Origin: Aquipluma nitroreducens | GTDB lineage: Bacteria; Bacteroidota; Bacteroidia; Bacteroidales; Prolixibacteraceae | Direction: 5' to 3' | DNA: 64,000 nt | Assembly: GCF_009689585.1 (NCBI RefSeq) | Contig: NZ_AP018694.1 | Location: 3,301,001-3,365,000, forward strand | Shown here: positions 12,822-44,226 of the stretch, piece by piece | How positions within the stretch are numbered: position 1 is the stretch's first letter | Layout of the letters: each line of letters opens with the position of its first letter | Program-made: the position numbers and the translations under genes | Notes under the pieces: generated by a model | Seen by the model: the letters and a program-made list of their open reading frames with translations, nothing else | Told to the model about the DNA's origin: nothing | Database searches by the model: none

Positions 12822-14057
12822 ATGAAATACCTCGTTTCCAAATCCGATAAAACCCTGAAAGGAAGTATCGTTCTTCCCGGTTCGAAAAGTATTGCCAACC
12901 GCGCGCTGATTATTCATGCGCTGAGTTATAGCCCGTATTCGATTGAAAATCTATCGGATAGTGACGATGTTCGGGTGATGAGTCAGGTTTTTAATTCGAA
13001 TACGAATCATTTCGATATTGGTCATGCCGGAACTGCCATGCGGTTTCTGACGGCTTTCCTTTCACAAATTGTGGGTGAGTGGACAATTACCGGATCGGAT
13101 CGGATGAAGCAGCGACCTATCGGAATTTTGGTTGATGCCCTGAATAAACTTGGGGCGCGGATTGAATATCTCGAAAATGATGGTTTCCCTCCGCTGAAAA
13201 TTTACGGTTCGCACTTAAAAGGTTGTGTGCTCGAATTGGATGGGAGCGTAAGCAGTCAGTATATTTCGGCGCTTTTGATGATTGCTCCAACCATTGAAGA
13301 TGGCCTGACTTTGCGCCTGAAAAATAAAATCACGTCGCGTTCGTACATCGAAATGACGTTGAAACTAATGGAGCAATTTGGAGTTCAGCACGTTTGGAAA
13401 GGCAACGAAATACGCATTTCAGAACAAAAATACAAAGCTCTTCCGTTCTCGGTTGAGGCCGATTGGTCGGGAGCATCGTATTGGTATCAGATGGCTGTTT
13501 TGGCTGAAAATGTGGATGTAGAGCTTATTGGTTTGACTACCGAAAGTCTTCAGGGAGACGCCATGATTGCTCAATGGTTCGAACAATTGGGTATCCAGAC
13601 CACAGCAACCGAAAAAGGGTCGCGTTTGACTAAGAATGGGCAATCACTTCCAAAATATTTGCAACTCAATTTCATTGAAAATCCTGATGTGGCACAGACT
13701 TTCGCTGTTTTGTGCGTGATGAAACAGATACCATTTCATTTTACCGGACTGGAAACATTGAAAATAAAAGAAACCAACCGGATTGCCGCACTTCAGGATG
13801 AGCTGGCCAAATTTGGTGTCCAAATCACCGAAACCGCTCACGGAGAACTGAAATGGGATGGCACTTTTCCGCTCGAAAAGCAAGCTGTTCCTGAAATTGA
13901 AACCTACCACGATCACCGCATGGCGATGGCTTTTGCTCCGGCTTGCCAATCGTACGGGCCGGTTGCTATTCTCGATCCGATGGTCGTCACTAAATCGTAT
14001 CCGGCCTTCTGGGAAGATTTGAAAAAGGTGGGCTTTGTGGTGGAAAAAGTAATGTGA
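12822..14057 (+). CDS. aroA: 3-phosphoshikimate 1-carboxyvinyltransferase (EPSP synthase)
   Basis: Sixth step of the shikimate pathway: shikimate-3-phosphate plus PEP to EPSP. The PEP/S3P-binding signatures are present: PGSKSIANRALIIHALS (about 19-35), GHAGTAMRFLTAFL (about 68-81), the catalytic region MKQRPIGILVDALNKLGA, and LKIKETNRIAALQDELAKFG near residue 310. The C-terminal DHRMAMAFAP motif is also there. The 411-residue length is slightly short of the ~430 typical of the family but standard for Bacteroidota. It follows aroB as a two-gene operon, and a REP pair begins at its stop codon. Confidence 0.96.
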   Translation: MKYLVSKSDKTLKGSIVLPGSKSIANRALIIHALSYSPYSIENLSDSDDVRVMSQVFNSNTNHFDIGHAGTAMRFLTAFLSQIVGEWTITGSDRMKQRPIGILVDALNKLGARIEYLENDGFPPLKIYGSHLKGCVLELDGSVSSQYISALLMIAPTIEDGLTLRLKNKITSRSYIEMTLKLMEQFGVQHVWKGNEIRISEQKYKALPFSVEADWSGASYWYQMAVLAENVDVELIGLTTESLQGDAMIAQWFEQLGIQTTATEKGSRLTKNGQSLPKYLQLNFIENPDVAQTFAVLCVMKQIPFHFTGLETLKIKETNRIAALQDELAKFGVQITETAHGELKWDGTFPLEKQAVPEIETYHDHRMAMAFAPACQSYGPVAILDPMVVTKSYPAFWEDLKKVGFVVEKVM

Positions 14058-14171
14058 TCGATGTCCTTCAGCTAAAGCAGACGGCAAAATATATCATTGT
14101 TTCATATCAGGAGTAACGTTATTCAAAGCTAAGCCTATGCTTTGCCGTTGGCTTCAGCCAACGGACATCGA
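14058..14171. repeat. REP pair (BIME-like) A, downstream of aroA
   Basis: The outer arms TCGATGTCC (14058-14066) and GGACATCGA (14163-14171) are inverted. The left REP reads CAGCTAAAGCAGACGGCAAA. The right one is TTTGCCG followed by a perfect hairpin CCGTTGGCT-TC-AGCCAACGG (14145-14164). Both keep the GGCAAA/TTTGCC foot next to the stem. The unit abuts the transposase gene and may also terminate aroA transcription. Confidence 0.85.
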
Positions 14172-14177
14172 ATCAGA

Positions 14178-14612
14178 TCAGTCCTTCAATTTTTCGAACC
14201 CATATTTTTCTTCGAGTAGTTTTATTTCATCATCTAGTGTAATTCGCTGATGATGTGTGTCTTGATTTTGAATGTATTTGCGGATTCGTTCTACTTGAGA
14301 TTGCCCTATGGAGACTGCATAATAGTCGTCCTGCCATGCAAAATGATAGGGAAATATTTTGAGGCTGTTTATCCAAAATGAACTTTCGCCTTTCATGTAT
14401 TGCATAATGGTGGAGATATTCTGCTGCTTGCCCATGTTTATCAGGGCATGCACATGATTTTCATGTACATTGATGAAATCGAGGTTGATGTTTTTATCTT
14501 CAGTATTTGCCCTGAAATGTTTCAGAAGTTCTGGATGAAAGGAATGCGGGATGTAATAGGCTCTGTCTTTGACACACCATACGCAATGTATCCAGATTTT
14601 CACATACGACAT
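14178..14612 (-). CDS. REP-associated tyrosine transposase (IS200-like, RAYT)
   Basis: A 144-residue single-domain Y1 transposase. The HUH motif is in ENHVHALI (His53 and His55) and the candidate nucleophilic Tyr is Y113 in RIRKYIQNQ; this Y1/HUH pair cuts single-stranded DNA at hairpins. The N-terminus (MSYVKIWIHCVWCVKDR) is the usual first strand of the family. It lacks the ends of a complete IS200 element. Instead, REP-type hairpin pairs lie directly on both sides (14058-14171 and 14724-14821), which is the arrangement that defines RAYTs: domesticated transposases that process REP sequences. Expressed alone, opposite to aroA. Confidence 0.93.
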   Translation of the reverse strand: MSYVKIWIHCVWCVKDRAYYIPHSFHPELLKHFRANTEDKNINLDFINVHENHVHALINMGKQQNISTIMQYMKGESSFWINSLKIFPYHFAWQDDYYAVSIGQSQVERIRKYIQNQDTHHQRITLDDEIKLLEEKYGFEKLKD

Positions 14613-14723
14613 AATTTTGATCTTTGGAGTTGAGCTAATTTAATGAATTTTAGTTGGATATTCTGTTCTTTGGTAAAAGCCAGCAGAAATCAATTCAATT
14701 CTTCTTAGTTGAACTACATGCTT

Positions 14724-14821
14724 GTCAGCTAAAGCAGACGGCAAAGTATATCAGTTTTCAACTCAGCTTTACTGTTATTCAAAATTAAGCTTATCCTTTG
14801 CCGTTTCGCTTTAGCGAACGG
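14724..14821. repeat. REP pair (BIME-like) B, other side of the transposase
   Basis: The left REP at 14724-14746 reads GTC-AGC-TAAA-GCA-GAC followed by GGCAAAG. The inverted right REP at 14797-14821 reads TTTGCCG followed by TTTCGCTTTAGCGAACGG. Spacer about 50 bp. Together with pair A it brackets the RAYT gene. Confidence 0.85.
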
Positions 14822-14837
14822 ATTGGAGTAACAATTT

Positions 14838-15278
14838 TTACCTTTTCTGCTGAAAAAAATCTTTCATTAATTGTGCACATTCATTTTCAAGTACTCCAAA
14901 AACAACTTCAGTTTTGGGATGTAAAGCTGCTGGTGCAAACTTGTTGAATCCCCTTTTTTCGTCGGATGCGCCATACACTACTTTGCCAATTTGCGACCAG
15001 CCCAAAGCGCCAGCGCACATTACGCATGGTTCCAGAGTAATATACAACGTGCATTCGTTGAGGTATTTTCCGCCCAAAAGATTGGCGGCGGCGGTAATGG
15101 CCTGCATTTCGGCGTGGGCGGTTACGTCGGTGAGTGTTTCAGTCAGGTTGTGAGTACGGGCAATGATGCGGTTTTGCGAAACCACCACCGCACCAACCGG
15201 AATTTCGCCTTCAGCAAAAGCAAGTTCTGCCTCTTGAAGTGCGCGGCGCATAAAATATTCGTCGTTAAAAAGCTCCAT
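14838..15278 (-). CDS. tadA: tRNA-specific adenosine deaminase
   Basis: A 146-residue cytidine-deaminase-fold enzyme that converts A34 to inosine in tRNA-Arg(ACG). Zinc and catalytic residues are visible: H55-A-E57 in TAHAEMQAI, and C85 and C88 in PCVMCAGAL. The IPVGAVVV strand before them is typical of TadA. Length is normal. The start ATG at 15278 gives MELFNDEYFMRRAL, which aligns with the usual first helix. A TAnnTTTG box lies about 25 bp upstream. A related nucleoside deaminase role (guanine deaminase) is possible but less likely, given the TadA-like length and motifs. Confidence 0.92.
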   Translation of the reverse strand: MELFNDEYFMRRALQEAELAFAEGEIPVGAVVVSQNRIIARTHNLTETLTDVTAHAEMQAITAAANLLGGKYLNECTLYITLEPCVMCAGALGWSQIGKVVYGASDEKRGFNKFAPAALHPKTEVVFGVLENECAQLMKDFFQQKR

Positions 15279-15302
15279 CTGTTCAAGGCAAAAGTTTCAA
15301 GG

Positions 15303-15310
15303 CAAAAGTA
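15303..15310 (-). promoter_or_regulatory. -7 box TACTTTTG for tadA
   Basis: An exact TAnnTTTG match on the minus strand, 25 bp before the tadA ATG. A direct repeat of ACTTTTGCCTTGAA lies across the leader. Confidence 0.55.
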
Positions 15311-15340
15311 AAAGAAAATGTTGGTAAGCTTTCAAAATAA

Positions 15341-15381
15341 AAAAGACACTCCGAAAGTTATCCTTTGATGAGTGTCTTTTT
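15341..15381 (-). terminator. terminator of the DUF362 gene
   Basis: AAAAGACACTC (15341-15351) pairs with GAGTGTCTTTT (15370-15380). Read on the minus strand it ends in a T run, just after the DUF362 stop. Confidence 0.8.
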
Positions 15382-15404
15382 CTGAAATAATTCAAAAGTA
15401 AAAT

Positions 15405-16964
15405 CTATTGGATAGTGGCCTGAATCAATTCAATGCCATCTTTCTTGCCCAGATTTTTACTGTACTTTTTGTCTTTCGCGTTGTTCCAGTGTTCCATCAC
15501 GCCTAAACTCGATAATTTGCTGCCATCTCTTTCCGGATCGTAAACCGCTTTCGATGGCGGGTTGTTGGCCTGGGCAGCTTCAATGAGGTACTGGTCGCTA
15601 AACTTAATGTCAAGAGCATCGGGCCATTCAGAACGAATAAAATCGAGGCCAACAGCATCAATGGCAACACCATCCTGCGAGGCAAATAAACTAGAAGGCC
15701 AGTTGTTGTTGAAAGGCGCCATCTGCCATTTTGGTGCTGGAATACCGTTCACGAGTTTCGCTCCGTACAATCCGTCGATCAGGAAAAGCATTGTTTTTCC
15801 ACCCAAATCCTTGTGCCCCAGAAAATCGACAAAAGTCATGTACTTGGGCTTTCCTTCCCTGTTCTGATCAAAATTATCGTGTGCATTTTTTCGCCAGTCG
15901 CTGTTGATGCTGGTCACTCCGTAGTAATTCTTTCCGCAAAGGGTAACTCCCTGCCCAACGTGGCCTTTCAGTAATGCAACATTGATGAGGTAATCAGCTT
16001 CCACGGCGCAAGTTGCCAATCCCTGATCAAGTTTTCCGTTGTCAACCGAATACGGAATCGCTCTCTCTACATAAGTTGATTTTACGCGGCCATTCCCGCC
16101 AACATTATCCACAAAAATAACCTCCGGAAATTCAGCATGGCATTTGTCGTAGATGTTGTCGGTAATAAAGCGGCTGGCATCAAAAACGCTAATGTTTTTC
16201 TGCGGAATGCCGGCGTCGTGAATCATTGTCCGCAGCAAAGCCAGAGTCATTTGGGGCGAAGCGTTTATTTCGTTCGAGTTGGTTTGTGCGCTGTTGTTGT
16301 TGGCATTTATTTTTACGGCAATCTTCTGGTTCGGCTGATAACCTTCAGCATTCCCTTTCTTGGTCTGATTGAAAGATACGAAAAGCGCTTTCCATGCTTT
16401 AGCCAGACTCTTTTCTCCGGTCAACGATAAAAGCGTTCGGTTCATCATTTTGTCCGTTTCAGGCTGCGAGTTGTATTTATCGTCCCACCAGAAACCAGTA
16501 GAGCCATTCCAATTGGCTGCCTTGGGGTTATGAACCCAAACCACACGTCCCGGATTTATACCGTGCGAAGTACCAACTGGTGCATTGGGTGTAATGATCC
16601 ACTCCGGAGTAGAATTGGCAAACACATTTTCAGGATTTTGAACAAAGAATGCAATGGAACCACCAAAGGCAACGACCAGAAAAGCGATGAAATAAAAATA
16701 TCTGGCTTTTTTAAAATTAAGCTGAGCCAAACGGAATGCCTTGAAAGTCCCGGTAAGGGTGAGAAGATAAATTACAAAGCCCGACATAACCGGAGCACTG
16801 GCTTGCATGCATGGGTAGGCTGCGCGTTGAGGCTTCGGAATGACCCGAATCAGGAACCATACGGTTGTTGCTATTCCCAGCGAAAGGAAAATAAGCTTGC
16901 CAAAAATAGGGTTTGAAACAGAACTCTCCCGGTATTTTTTCAGGAATTGGATGAGTGATTTCAT
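15405..16964 (-). CDS. DUF362 domain membrane-anchored protein
   Basis: 519 residues. The N-terminal ~110 residues contain three hydrophobic segments (FLSLGIATTVWFLIRV, VMSGFVIYLLTLTGTF and YFYFIAFLVVAFGGSIAFF), so the protein is anchored in the inner membrane. The rest is the DUF362 domain, starting with VKINANNNSAQTNSNEINASPQ and including LINVALLKGHVGQGVTLCGKNYYG and FLIDGLYGAK. DUF362 proteins are often linked with ferredoxins, but no CxxCxxC cluster is seen here. The function is unknown; a redox or ligand-binding periplasmic role is only inferred. It has its own terminator and no operon partner. Confidence 0.85.
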   Translation of the reverse strand: MKSLIQFLKKYRESSVSNPIFGKLIFLSLGIATTVWFLIRVIPKPQRAAYPCMQASAPVMSGFVIYLLTLTGTFKAFRLAQLNFKKARYFYFIAFLVVAFGGSIAFFVQNPENVFANSTPEWIITPNAPVGTSHGINPGRVVWVHNPKAANWNGSTGFWWDDKYNSQPETDKMMNRTLLSLTGEKSLAKAWKALFVSFNQTKKGNAEGYQPNQKIAVKINANNNSAQTNSNEINASPQMTLALLRTMIHDAGIPQKNISVFDASRFITDNIYDKCHAEFPEVIFVDNVGGNGRVKSTYVERAIPYSVDNGKLDQGLATCAVEADYLINVALLKGHVGQGVTLCGKNYYGVTSINSDWRKNAHDNFDQNREGKPKYMTFVDFLGHKDLGGKTMLFLIDGLYGAKLVNGIPAPKWQMAPFNNNWPSSLFASQDGVAIDAVGLDFIRSEWPDALDIKFSDQYLIEAAQANNPPSKAVYDPERDGSKLSSLGVMEHWNNAKDKKYSKNLGKKDGIELIQATIQ

Positions 16965-41582: not shown

Positions 41583-41606
41583 CCGTCAGCTAAAGCAGAC
41601 GGCAAA
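41583..41606 (+). repeat. solitary REP element C
   Basis: CCGTC-AGC-TAAA-GCA-GACGG followed by GGCAAAG: the same hairpin and foot as the elements around the RAYT at 14.2 kb. Alone here, without an inverted partner. Confidence 0.85.
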
Positions 41607-41627
41607 GGATATTCTCGCCATTGCATT

Positions 41628-44151: not shown

Positions 44152-44178
44152 TCCGTTCGCTAAAGCGAAACGGCAAAG
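44152..44178 (+). repeat. solitary REP element D
   Basis: CCGTTCGC-TAAA-GCGAAACGG followed by GGCAAAGAATATT. Same foot as elements A-C, with a different stem sequence that keeps pairing. Confidence 0.85.
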
Positions 44179-44226
44179 AATATTAGCACAATGAGTAAAA
44201 GGTTGCTGAATATTAAACACACTTCC

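Follow-up and report, generated by a model that had tools for sequence, protein, structure and literature searches.

REP hairpins accompany a transposase-like gene of putative TnpA-Y1 subclass 1.2 in Aquipluma nitroreducens and its relatives

The organization of one locus and the distribution of its hairpins make it probable that a small transposase-like gene of Aquipluma nitroreducens encodes a HUH/Tyr endonuclease of TnpA-Y1 subclass 1.2 with its own REP family, which it processes. The stretch of DNA analyzed, here called the window, is 64,000 nucleotides long (positions 3301001-3365000 of the 5.71-Mb single-contig genome, designated G000). An earlier note on this DNA had described a complete RAYT/REP system. 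The REP system stands, but the identification as a RAYT does not. This is a REP system on an IS200-proximal subclass that has been reported to lack REPs, not a RAYT with an odd foot.

The tnpA-like gene (14178..14612, minus strand) encodes a single-domain HUH/Y1 protein of 144 amino acids. Its only Pfam domain is Y1_Tnp (E 5e-25). The Y1/HUH transposase with His53, His55, and Tyr113 that had been recognized earlier is borne out by an alignment of the window protein with 25 relatives, as H53, H55, W93, Y113, Q117, H120, and H121 are all invariant in the 26 sequences. The HUH motif H53-V-H55 is encoded at 14448..14456 and the presumed catalytic Tyr113 at 14274..14276, both on the minus strand. 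An AlphaFold model of the protein has a mean pLDDT of 86.5, and its nearest PDB folds by Foldseek are the TnpA proteins of ISDra2 and IS608 (best E 1e-8), many of the matching structures having been solved with hairpin DNA. The E. coli TnpA-REP structure 4er8 is at rank 30 among the fold matches (E 1e-5). The closest named relative found is a 90% identical protein from a Prolixibacteraceae MAG, which agrees with the Bacteroidota-type genome proposed in the earlier note. The gene lies between an EPSP synthase gene (aroA, 12822..14057, plus strand; Pfam EPSP_synthase) and a deaminase gene (14838..15278, minus strand; Pfam dCMP_cyt_deam_1 / MafB19-deam). No Rfam RNA reaches gathering scores in 13500-15500. 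Identity as a defence protein was rejected, as a PADLOC search gave no match.

By its sequence the protein is IS200-like and bears the signature of TnpA-Y1 subclass 1.2. It scores 27.2 bits with the RAYT model (NCBIfam NF047646, class 2), for which the cut-off is 80, while the NCBIfam IS200 transposase model gives 63.2 bits and a cut-off of 55 is passed. Y---Q--HH (YIQNQDTHH, with Q117, H120, and H121 invariant) replaces the Y---NP of RAYTs. Membership in the RAYTs is ruled out because of these scores and this motif. All 26 aligned proteins match the IS200 model, and 24 of them also match the RAYT model with E 0.001 or better. The features of subclass 1.2 are present: Y---Q--HH, WQ, a length close to about 148 amino acids, and a low copy number without IS behaviour. 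The HuH motif is NHVH in the window protein and DHVH or DHIH in many relatives, and that of subclass 1.2 is DH[IV]H.

The system resembles RAYT/TnpA-REP REPtrons (class 2) in its organization but not in its protein or its foot. In both, a low-copy HUH/Y1 gene lies between inverted REP pairs, the REPs are dispersed, paired, and intergenic, and some of them have stem irregularities. REPs of E. coli TnpA-REP are of the GTAG type. The window protein, unlike those of RAYT REPtrons, belongs to class 1 by its Y motif and the IS200 model. The foot is CAAAGRATA (5' TATCCTTTG on the opposite strand) and not a 5' GT[AG]G; the difference from GTAG had been noted before. The TRAA loop is conserved while the stem varies.

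Subclass 1.2 was described by Quentin et al. (2018, PMC6006769) as having Y---Q--HH, WQ, about 148 amino acids, and low copy number, and as occurring mainly in Cyanobacteria and Bacteroidetes. The window gene is like the subclass in all of these respects, Bacteroidetes included. The main survey of that paper enters subclass 1.2 with REP 'no', but here REPs flank and match the gene, and this statement, which is not a defining property of the subclass, is contradicted by hairpin-flanked loci. The automatic REP finder of the survey needed GT[AG]G, so REPs with a CAAA-type foot would escape it. Hand searches for REPs are mentioned for 2.1, 2.3, 2.6, and class 3, and in the parts of the paper covered here 1.2 is not among them. 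Searches of an open-licence part of PubMed Central, preprints excluded, turned up no report of REPs tied to subclass 1.2.

Four hairpin units at the locus form two foot-to-foot inverted pairs, each pair being a direct repeat of the other. Two inverted REP pairs had been said to bracket the gene, and this arrangement is correct, but two of the four hairpins (units 1 and 3) have decayed. Unit 1 (14065..14093, plus strand) is a degenerate copy with stem CCTTCAGC, loop TAAA, and GCAGACGG (hairpin 14065-14084), followed by foot CAAAATATA (14085-14093). Unit 2 (14136..14164, minus strand) is CCGTTGGC(TGAA)GCCAACGG with foot CAAAGCATA (14136-14144). The degenerate unit 3 (14722..14750, plus strand) is TTGTCAGC(TAAA)GCAGACGG with foot CAAAGTATA (14742-14750), and unit 4 (14792..14821, minus strand) is CCGTTCGC(TAAA)GCGAAACGG with a one-base bulge and foot CAAAGGATA (14792-14800). 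All have a TAAA or TGAA loop and a CAAA-type foot. Folded alone as single-stranded DNA, only unit 2 is strong (-10 kcal/mol, z -4.1); the bulged unit 4 is moderate (z -2.7), and units 1 and 3 fold no better than shuffles (z 0.2 and -0.4). The left-hand copies at the locus are degenerate versions of the genome consensus. As wholes, the REPIN-like left pair (14058..14171, an inverted repeat) and right pair (14715..14826) fold better than shuffles, with z -3.2 and -3.8. The window also contains two dispersed solo REPs on the plus strand, CCGTCAGC(TAAA)GCAGACGG CAAAGGATA at 41583..41611 and CCGTTCGC(TAAA)GCGAAACGG CAAAGAATA at 44153..44182. The latter is the bulged form of unit 4, which thus recurs at 14792-14821 and 44153-44182. 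At locus L076 this bulged form has an additional GC-rich stretch inserted within its hairpin. When up to 3 mismatches are allowed, CCGT-N4-TRAA-N4-ACGGCAAAG matches four sites in the window, compared to 0.22 expected, and misses both bulged units.

The REPs are dispersed in the genome and in the genus. By eye, the genome form has an 8-bp stem starting with CCGT, a TRAA loop, and the foot CAAAGRATA. The exact pattern CCGT-N4-TRAA-N4-ACGGCAAAG has 42 matches in the genome, while its reversed control has none. Dispersal had been predicted in the earlier note; its 20-mer has 16 exact genome matches and the 18-base core of the 20-mer has 21, so the motif also occurs away from the locus. The initial 1.1 Mb of the contig (5.7 Mb in all) contains none of these 21 copies, and a regional bias is possible. 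Within the GTDB family the pattern is found in 39 of 140 genomes, with one match to the reversed control in all 140, and near-identical 35-nt units occur at many places in many genomes of the genus. Only one of the 31 distinct REP loci retrieved is inside an ORF of at least 100 amino acids, although 83% of the same DNA falls within ORFs of this size. This locus, L030, is a 3-mismatch match without a hairpin. The 44 units in the loci retrieved, counted with a stem-requiring pattern that misses decayed units, include 10 foot-to-foot pairs within 110 nt and no other arrangement; a truncated unit at 3879470 is 89 nt from another unit in direct orientation.

The stem arms of the REPs co-vary. The pattern places no constraint on the four inner pairs, and among the matches listed in three genomes these are perfectly paired in 17 of 28 (G000), 22 of 23 (G003), and 23 of 28 (G005); shuffling the arms between copies gives 2.7, 5.9, and 3.5. 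In G000, 9 of the 11 imperfectly paired copies are a single recurrent form with an A.A mismatch.

Other small hairpins are less widely dispersed. GGGC(TAAA)GCCC has six copies in the genome (reversed control 1), each within about 110 nt of a REP, so some REP copies belong to larger units with several hairpins. G000 also has two distant paralogues of the gene, at 110200 (L032/L153) and 4676949 (L033/L154), with their own small flanking hairpins of the GTA-loop and GAA-loop types. The GTA-type REP CTCCGTAGGAG has only four copies in G000 (control 0), one of them beside the paralogue at 110200, so its dispersal there is weak. A second foot type, TAAA-N4-GGGGTTAGT, was considered as a general dispersed family and rejected. 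It is present in 22 of the 140 genomes, but 21 of these have only 1-5 matches, about the level of the reversed control. G110 alone, with 25 copies, has clear dispersal of this type, and dispersal is therefore not universal.

An ordinary IS200/IS605 insertion sequence with terminal hairpins that are REP-like by accident would account for the IS200 model score and for the fold closest to ISDra2 and IS608 TnpA, and like those elements the locus has HUH/Y1 catalytic residues and hairpins beside the gene. This explanation is very improbable. Several near-identical genomic copies are expected of such an element, but the window gene is single-copy and its next homologue is 34% identical. The hairpins form inverted, outward-facing pairs, and about 40 of the 42 REP-pattern matches are gene-free copies away from the tnpA-like gene. 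Fixed LE and RE ends with hairpins on one strand would be expected of an IS200/IS605 element. A tnpB beside the gene is optional in such elements, and the immediate neighbours here are EPSP synthase and the deaminase gene.

Hairpins are associated with the genes of relatives as well. A homologue is found by protein search in 120 of 140 genomes of the GTDB family, although some weaker matches may be subclass 1.1. Part of this list was taken for study: 69 loci of the near clade A, including that of the window, and 41 of the more distant clade B, in batches of 21 and 20. Of the 110 proteins, 109 have HH at the end of the Y motif and one, L099, has YH. For clade A a hairpin was defined as an 8-bp stem with at most one mismatch and a TRAA or TTYA loop. 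It is found within 300 bp upstream of 49 of 67 genes, downstream of 46 of 67, and on both sides of 35 of 65, in a sample where some loci are close relatives and not all are independent; in the controls, 6 of 465 distal windows and 2 of 1340 shuffles have one.

A second set comprised the best 80 of at least 559 relatives in named genomes, from which 16 copies of first-set loci were removed to leave 64, possibly still with a few members of the same GTDB family. Here the hairpin is upstream in 53 of 61, downstream in 50 of 62, and on at least one side in 56 of 59, compared to 5 of 645 distal windows. No such hairpin is present on either side of 9 of the 69 clade A loci and 3 of the 64 second-set loci. 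Homologues without flanking hairpins, which the earlier note had named as evidence against its reading, are thus the minority among those tested. The nearest upstream hairpin has minus orientation in 42 of 49 clade A and 44 of 55 second-set cases and the nearest downstream hairpin plus orientation in 42 of 46 and 45 of 52, so that both face outward. With the closing pair required, mismatches in the stem fall most frequently at the third pair counted from the loop (30 of 62 and 29 of 75).

The association does not depend on the choice of loop. When the loop is ignored, hairpin density in clade A flanks is 3.57/kb (0.24 shuffled, 0.29 distal). In clade B the first batch of 21 loci has 5.79/kb (0.22 shuffled, 0.45 distal), and the 20 loci that were previously unexamined have 4.77/kb (0.32 shuffled, 0.42 distal). 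In distal intergenic DNA the densities are 0.45/kb (clade A), 1.29/kb (clade B), and 1.05/kb (second set). In clade B the most frequent loops are GTA/TAC and GAA/TTC, which make up 23 of 62 in the first batch and 25 or more of 47 in the second; some clade B genes also have TTTA or TGAA loops.

The type of hairpin is specific to the clade of transposase. Loop class follows the protein tree, requiring 5 changes compared to 21.4 with shuffled labels, and none of 200 shuffles was as low. The tree is poorly resolved (166 proteins, 127 with a loop class, 147 columns), and the shuffles test clustering only, to which near copies contribute and which shared ancestry could also produce. TRAA hairpins are absent from all 58 flanks of RAYT genes in the same family (the 30 best genes above the RAYT cut-off, one per genome), and those flanks have other hairpins at 2.82/kb. 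TRAA stems of at least 7 bp are rare in distal intergenic DNA, with none in 18.0 kb (clade A), one in 14.7 kb (clade B), and one in 23.8 kb (second set). These results bear on the idea that the hairpins are host elements, such as terminators or mRNA stabilisers, with no special tie to the transposase. Their intergenic location and frequent position directly past stop codons are what such elements would show, but the clade-dependent loop, the RAYT flanks, and the scarcity of TRAA stems in distal DNA make it a very doubtful explanation. Some of the hairpins are inside a gene pair that we take, from our own reading of the protein sequences, to be leuA-leuC, so a terminator role is unlikely for these.

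Within the genus, genomes with the cognate gene have more REPs on average, but the link between REP number and gene is not strict. In the genus the mean is 29.7 REPs in the 12 genomes with the gene and 11.6 in the 11 without it (Mann-Whitney p 0.007), in a test that ignores relatedness and uses gene status assigned by us from homologue and flank data. A strict rule that REPs occur only with the gene is contradicted by G003 (23 REPs), G008 (36), and G010 (23) in the genus and by G055 (47) outside it. Draft assemblies and gene loss may account for some of these. The REPs of G055, a member of another genus, are of the genus type, and its own gene (L106) has a different foot; a lost enzyme or transfer are possible origins. 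Seven genomes outside the genus (G038, G042, G060, G064, G065, G095, and G121) have 0-5 REPs despite a close gene. In G095 and G121 the REPs are undercounted, since the local foot differs from the pattern.

REPs are present in some species and absent in others at orthologous sites. Among 22 genus members, the gap between the presumed leuA and leuC contains a REP in 7, an interrupted REP in 1, none in 13, and N-masked sequence in 1. REP stems at this same place differ by compensating changes between species. A second site carries a REP, in some cases bulged or decayed, in 9 of 17 members and lacks one in the other 8. The window junction between EPSP synthase and deaminase was compared in the 14 genomes with both neighbours on one contig, leaving nine one-sided genomes uncounted. 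There is no REP in G007, G010, and G016, where the genes are 22-68 nt apart; a single REP pair or remnant in G006, G008, G011, G014, G017, and G019; and the pair-gene-pair arrangement in G000 and G004. In G004 the tnpA-like gene is between the same neighbours (89% and 93% identical). Gaps of 664-985 nt are found in G001, G003, and G005. The right half of the G014 pair matches window unit 4, and from this sequence match the gene was likely gained or lost within a REP pair at the junction. Taken as a series, the empty, pair, and pair-gene-pair states of one junction shed light on the build-up of a REP system. Cleavage and target sites cannot be read from the empty sites because the flanks are too diverged.

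Several other subclades have the tnpA-like gene at other fixed positions, which fits mostly vertical inheritance. A low-copy gene that is mostly kept vertically, resembling a domesticated transposase, fits these data. In an alternative reading, the domesticated protein might cut or bind REPs in some host role, such as replication-fork or chromosome handling, with transposition now absent and the REPs being old relics spread only by inheritance and recombination. The fixed gene positions, the loose relation of REP counts to the gene, the diverged spacers between paired REPs, and the compensating stem changes at one site would agree with this. This alternative is nevertheless unlikely, as near-identical 35-nt units are found in many places of many genus genomes, and presence or absence at orthologous sites among species suggests that REPs spread within the lifetime of the genus.

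The favoured explanation is an enzyme that acts on its own REPs. The gene product would be a single-domain HUH/Tyr single-strand DNA endonuclease of subclass 1.2. Each REP of its family would combine a TRAA-looped hairpin of 8 bp, in many cases mismatched three pairs from the loop, with a foot that is specific to the lineage (CAAAGRATA in this genome), and such units would be used alone or in foot-to-foot pairs. The protein would bind hairpin and foot on exposed single-stranded DNA, for example the lagging-strand template, and Tyr113 would cleave beside the REP via a 5'-phosphotyrosine. Rejoining of the cut strand elsewhere would copy or move REPs and REP pairs into intergenic DNA. We infer this binding, cleavage, and transfer from the conserved catalytic residues, the fold, the co-segregation of gene and REPs, and the known chemistry of IS608, ISDra2, and TnpA-REP. 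TnpA of IS200/IS605 acts as a dimer.

On a broader scale we lean towards the view that subclass 1.2 is a separate, multi-phylum REP system derived from IS200-like class 1 and not from RAYTs, in which the loop (TRAA, GTA, or GAA) is a recognition key kept within clades while stem and foot drift. Second-set records include some titled Bacteroidota, Chlorobi/Ignavibacteria, Balneolaceae, Acidobacteria, and Neomarinimicrobiota, and many of them are MAGs, so contigs may be misassigned to taxa. With this reservation, genes of the subclass 1.2 type extend beyond the Cyanobacteria and Bacteroidetes of the published description (PMC6006769). Class 3 of the same paper also combines an IS200-like Y motif with dispersed hairpins and is said there to 'resemble both IS and REPtrons'. 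It differs as described in having Y----Q, a median of 178 amino acids, and a distribution in Planctomycetes, Acidobacteria, and Proteobacteria. The CGTC-tagged REPs (PMC3733652) include some with 8-bp stems and loops of 4, and they are said to lack a dedicated transposase. This family was rejected for the window hairpins on its published description, which gives a terminal CGTC tag, A-T first pairs, and a CCA tail, while the window REPs have CCGT within the stem and the foot CAAAGRATA.

If the broader view is true, IS200-type enzymes gave rise to partnerships between REPs and transposases on at least two occasions. A substrate and a role open to testing would be assigned to a group of small transposase-like genes that have been described as neither IS nor linked to REPs, and a candidate enzyme to a set of intergenic hairpin repeats in Bacteroidota and neighbouring phyla. 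With loop, stem mismatch, and foot matched by clade, recognition can be tested directly by swaps.

Some hairpins are placed at the ends of the tnpA-like genes themselves. For 15 of 68 genes and 21 of 64, the stop codon itself lies within the TRAA loop of a hairpin whose stem is 4 bp or longer. In clade A genes such as L068, L071, L072, and L076 the stop codon TAA is within the GGGC(TAAA)GCCC loop, and some clade A genes have a matching hairpin about 21-26 nt upstream of the ATG. Control of the gene's own expression by these hairpins is possible. A different multi-hairpin composite recurs in the leuA-leuC gap of L280, L282, L284, L286, L287, L291, and L292. Its parts are CCCTGAAAGGG or similar, GCCCGGGG..CCCCGGG, and CCGTCCGCG..CGGACGG, and its GAA loop resembles some clade B hairpins.
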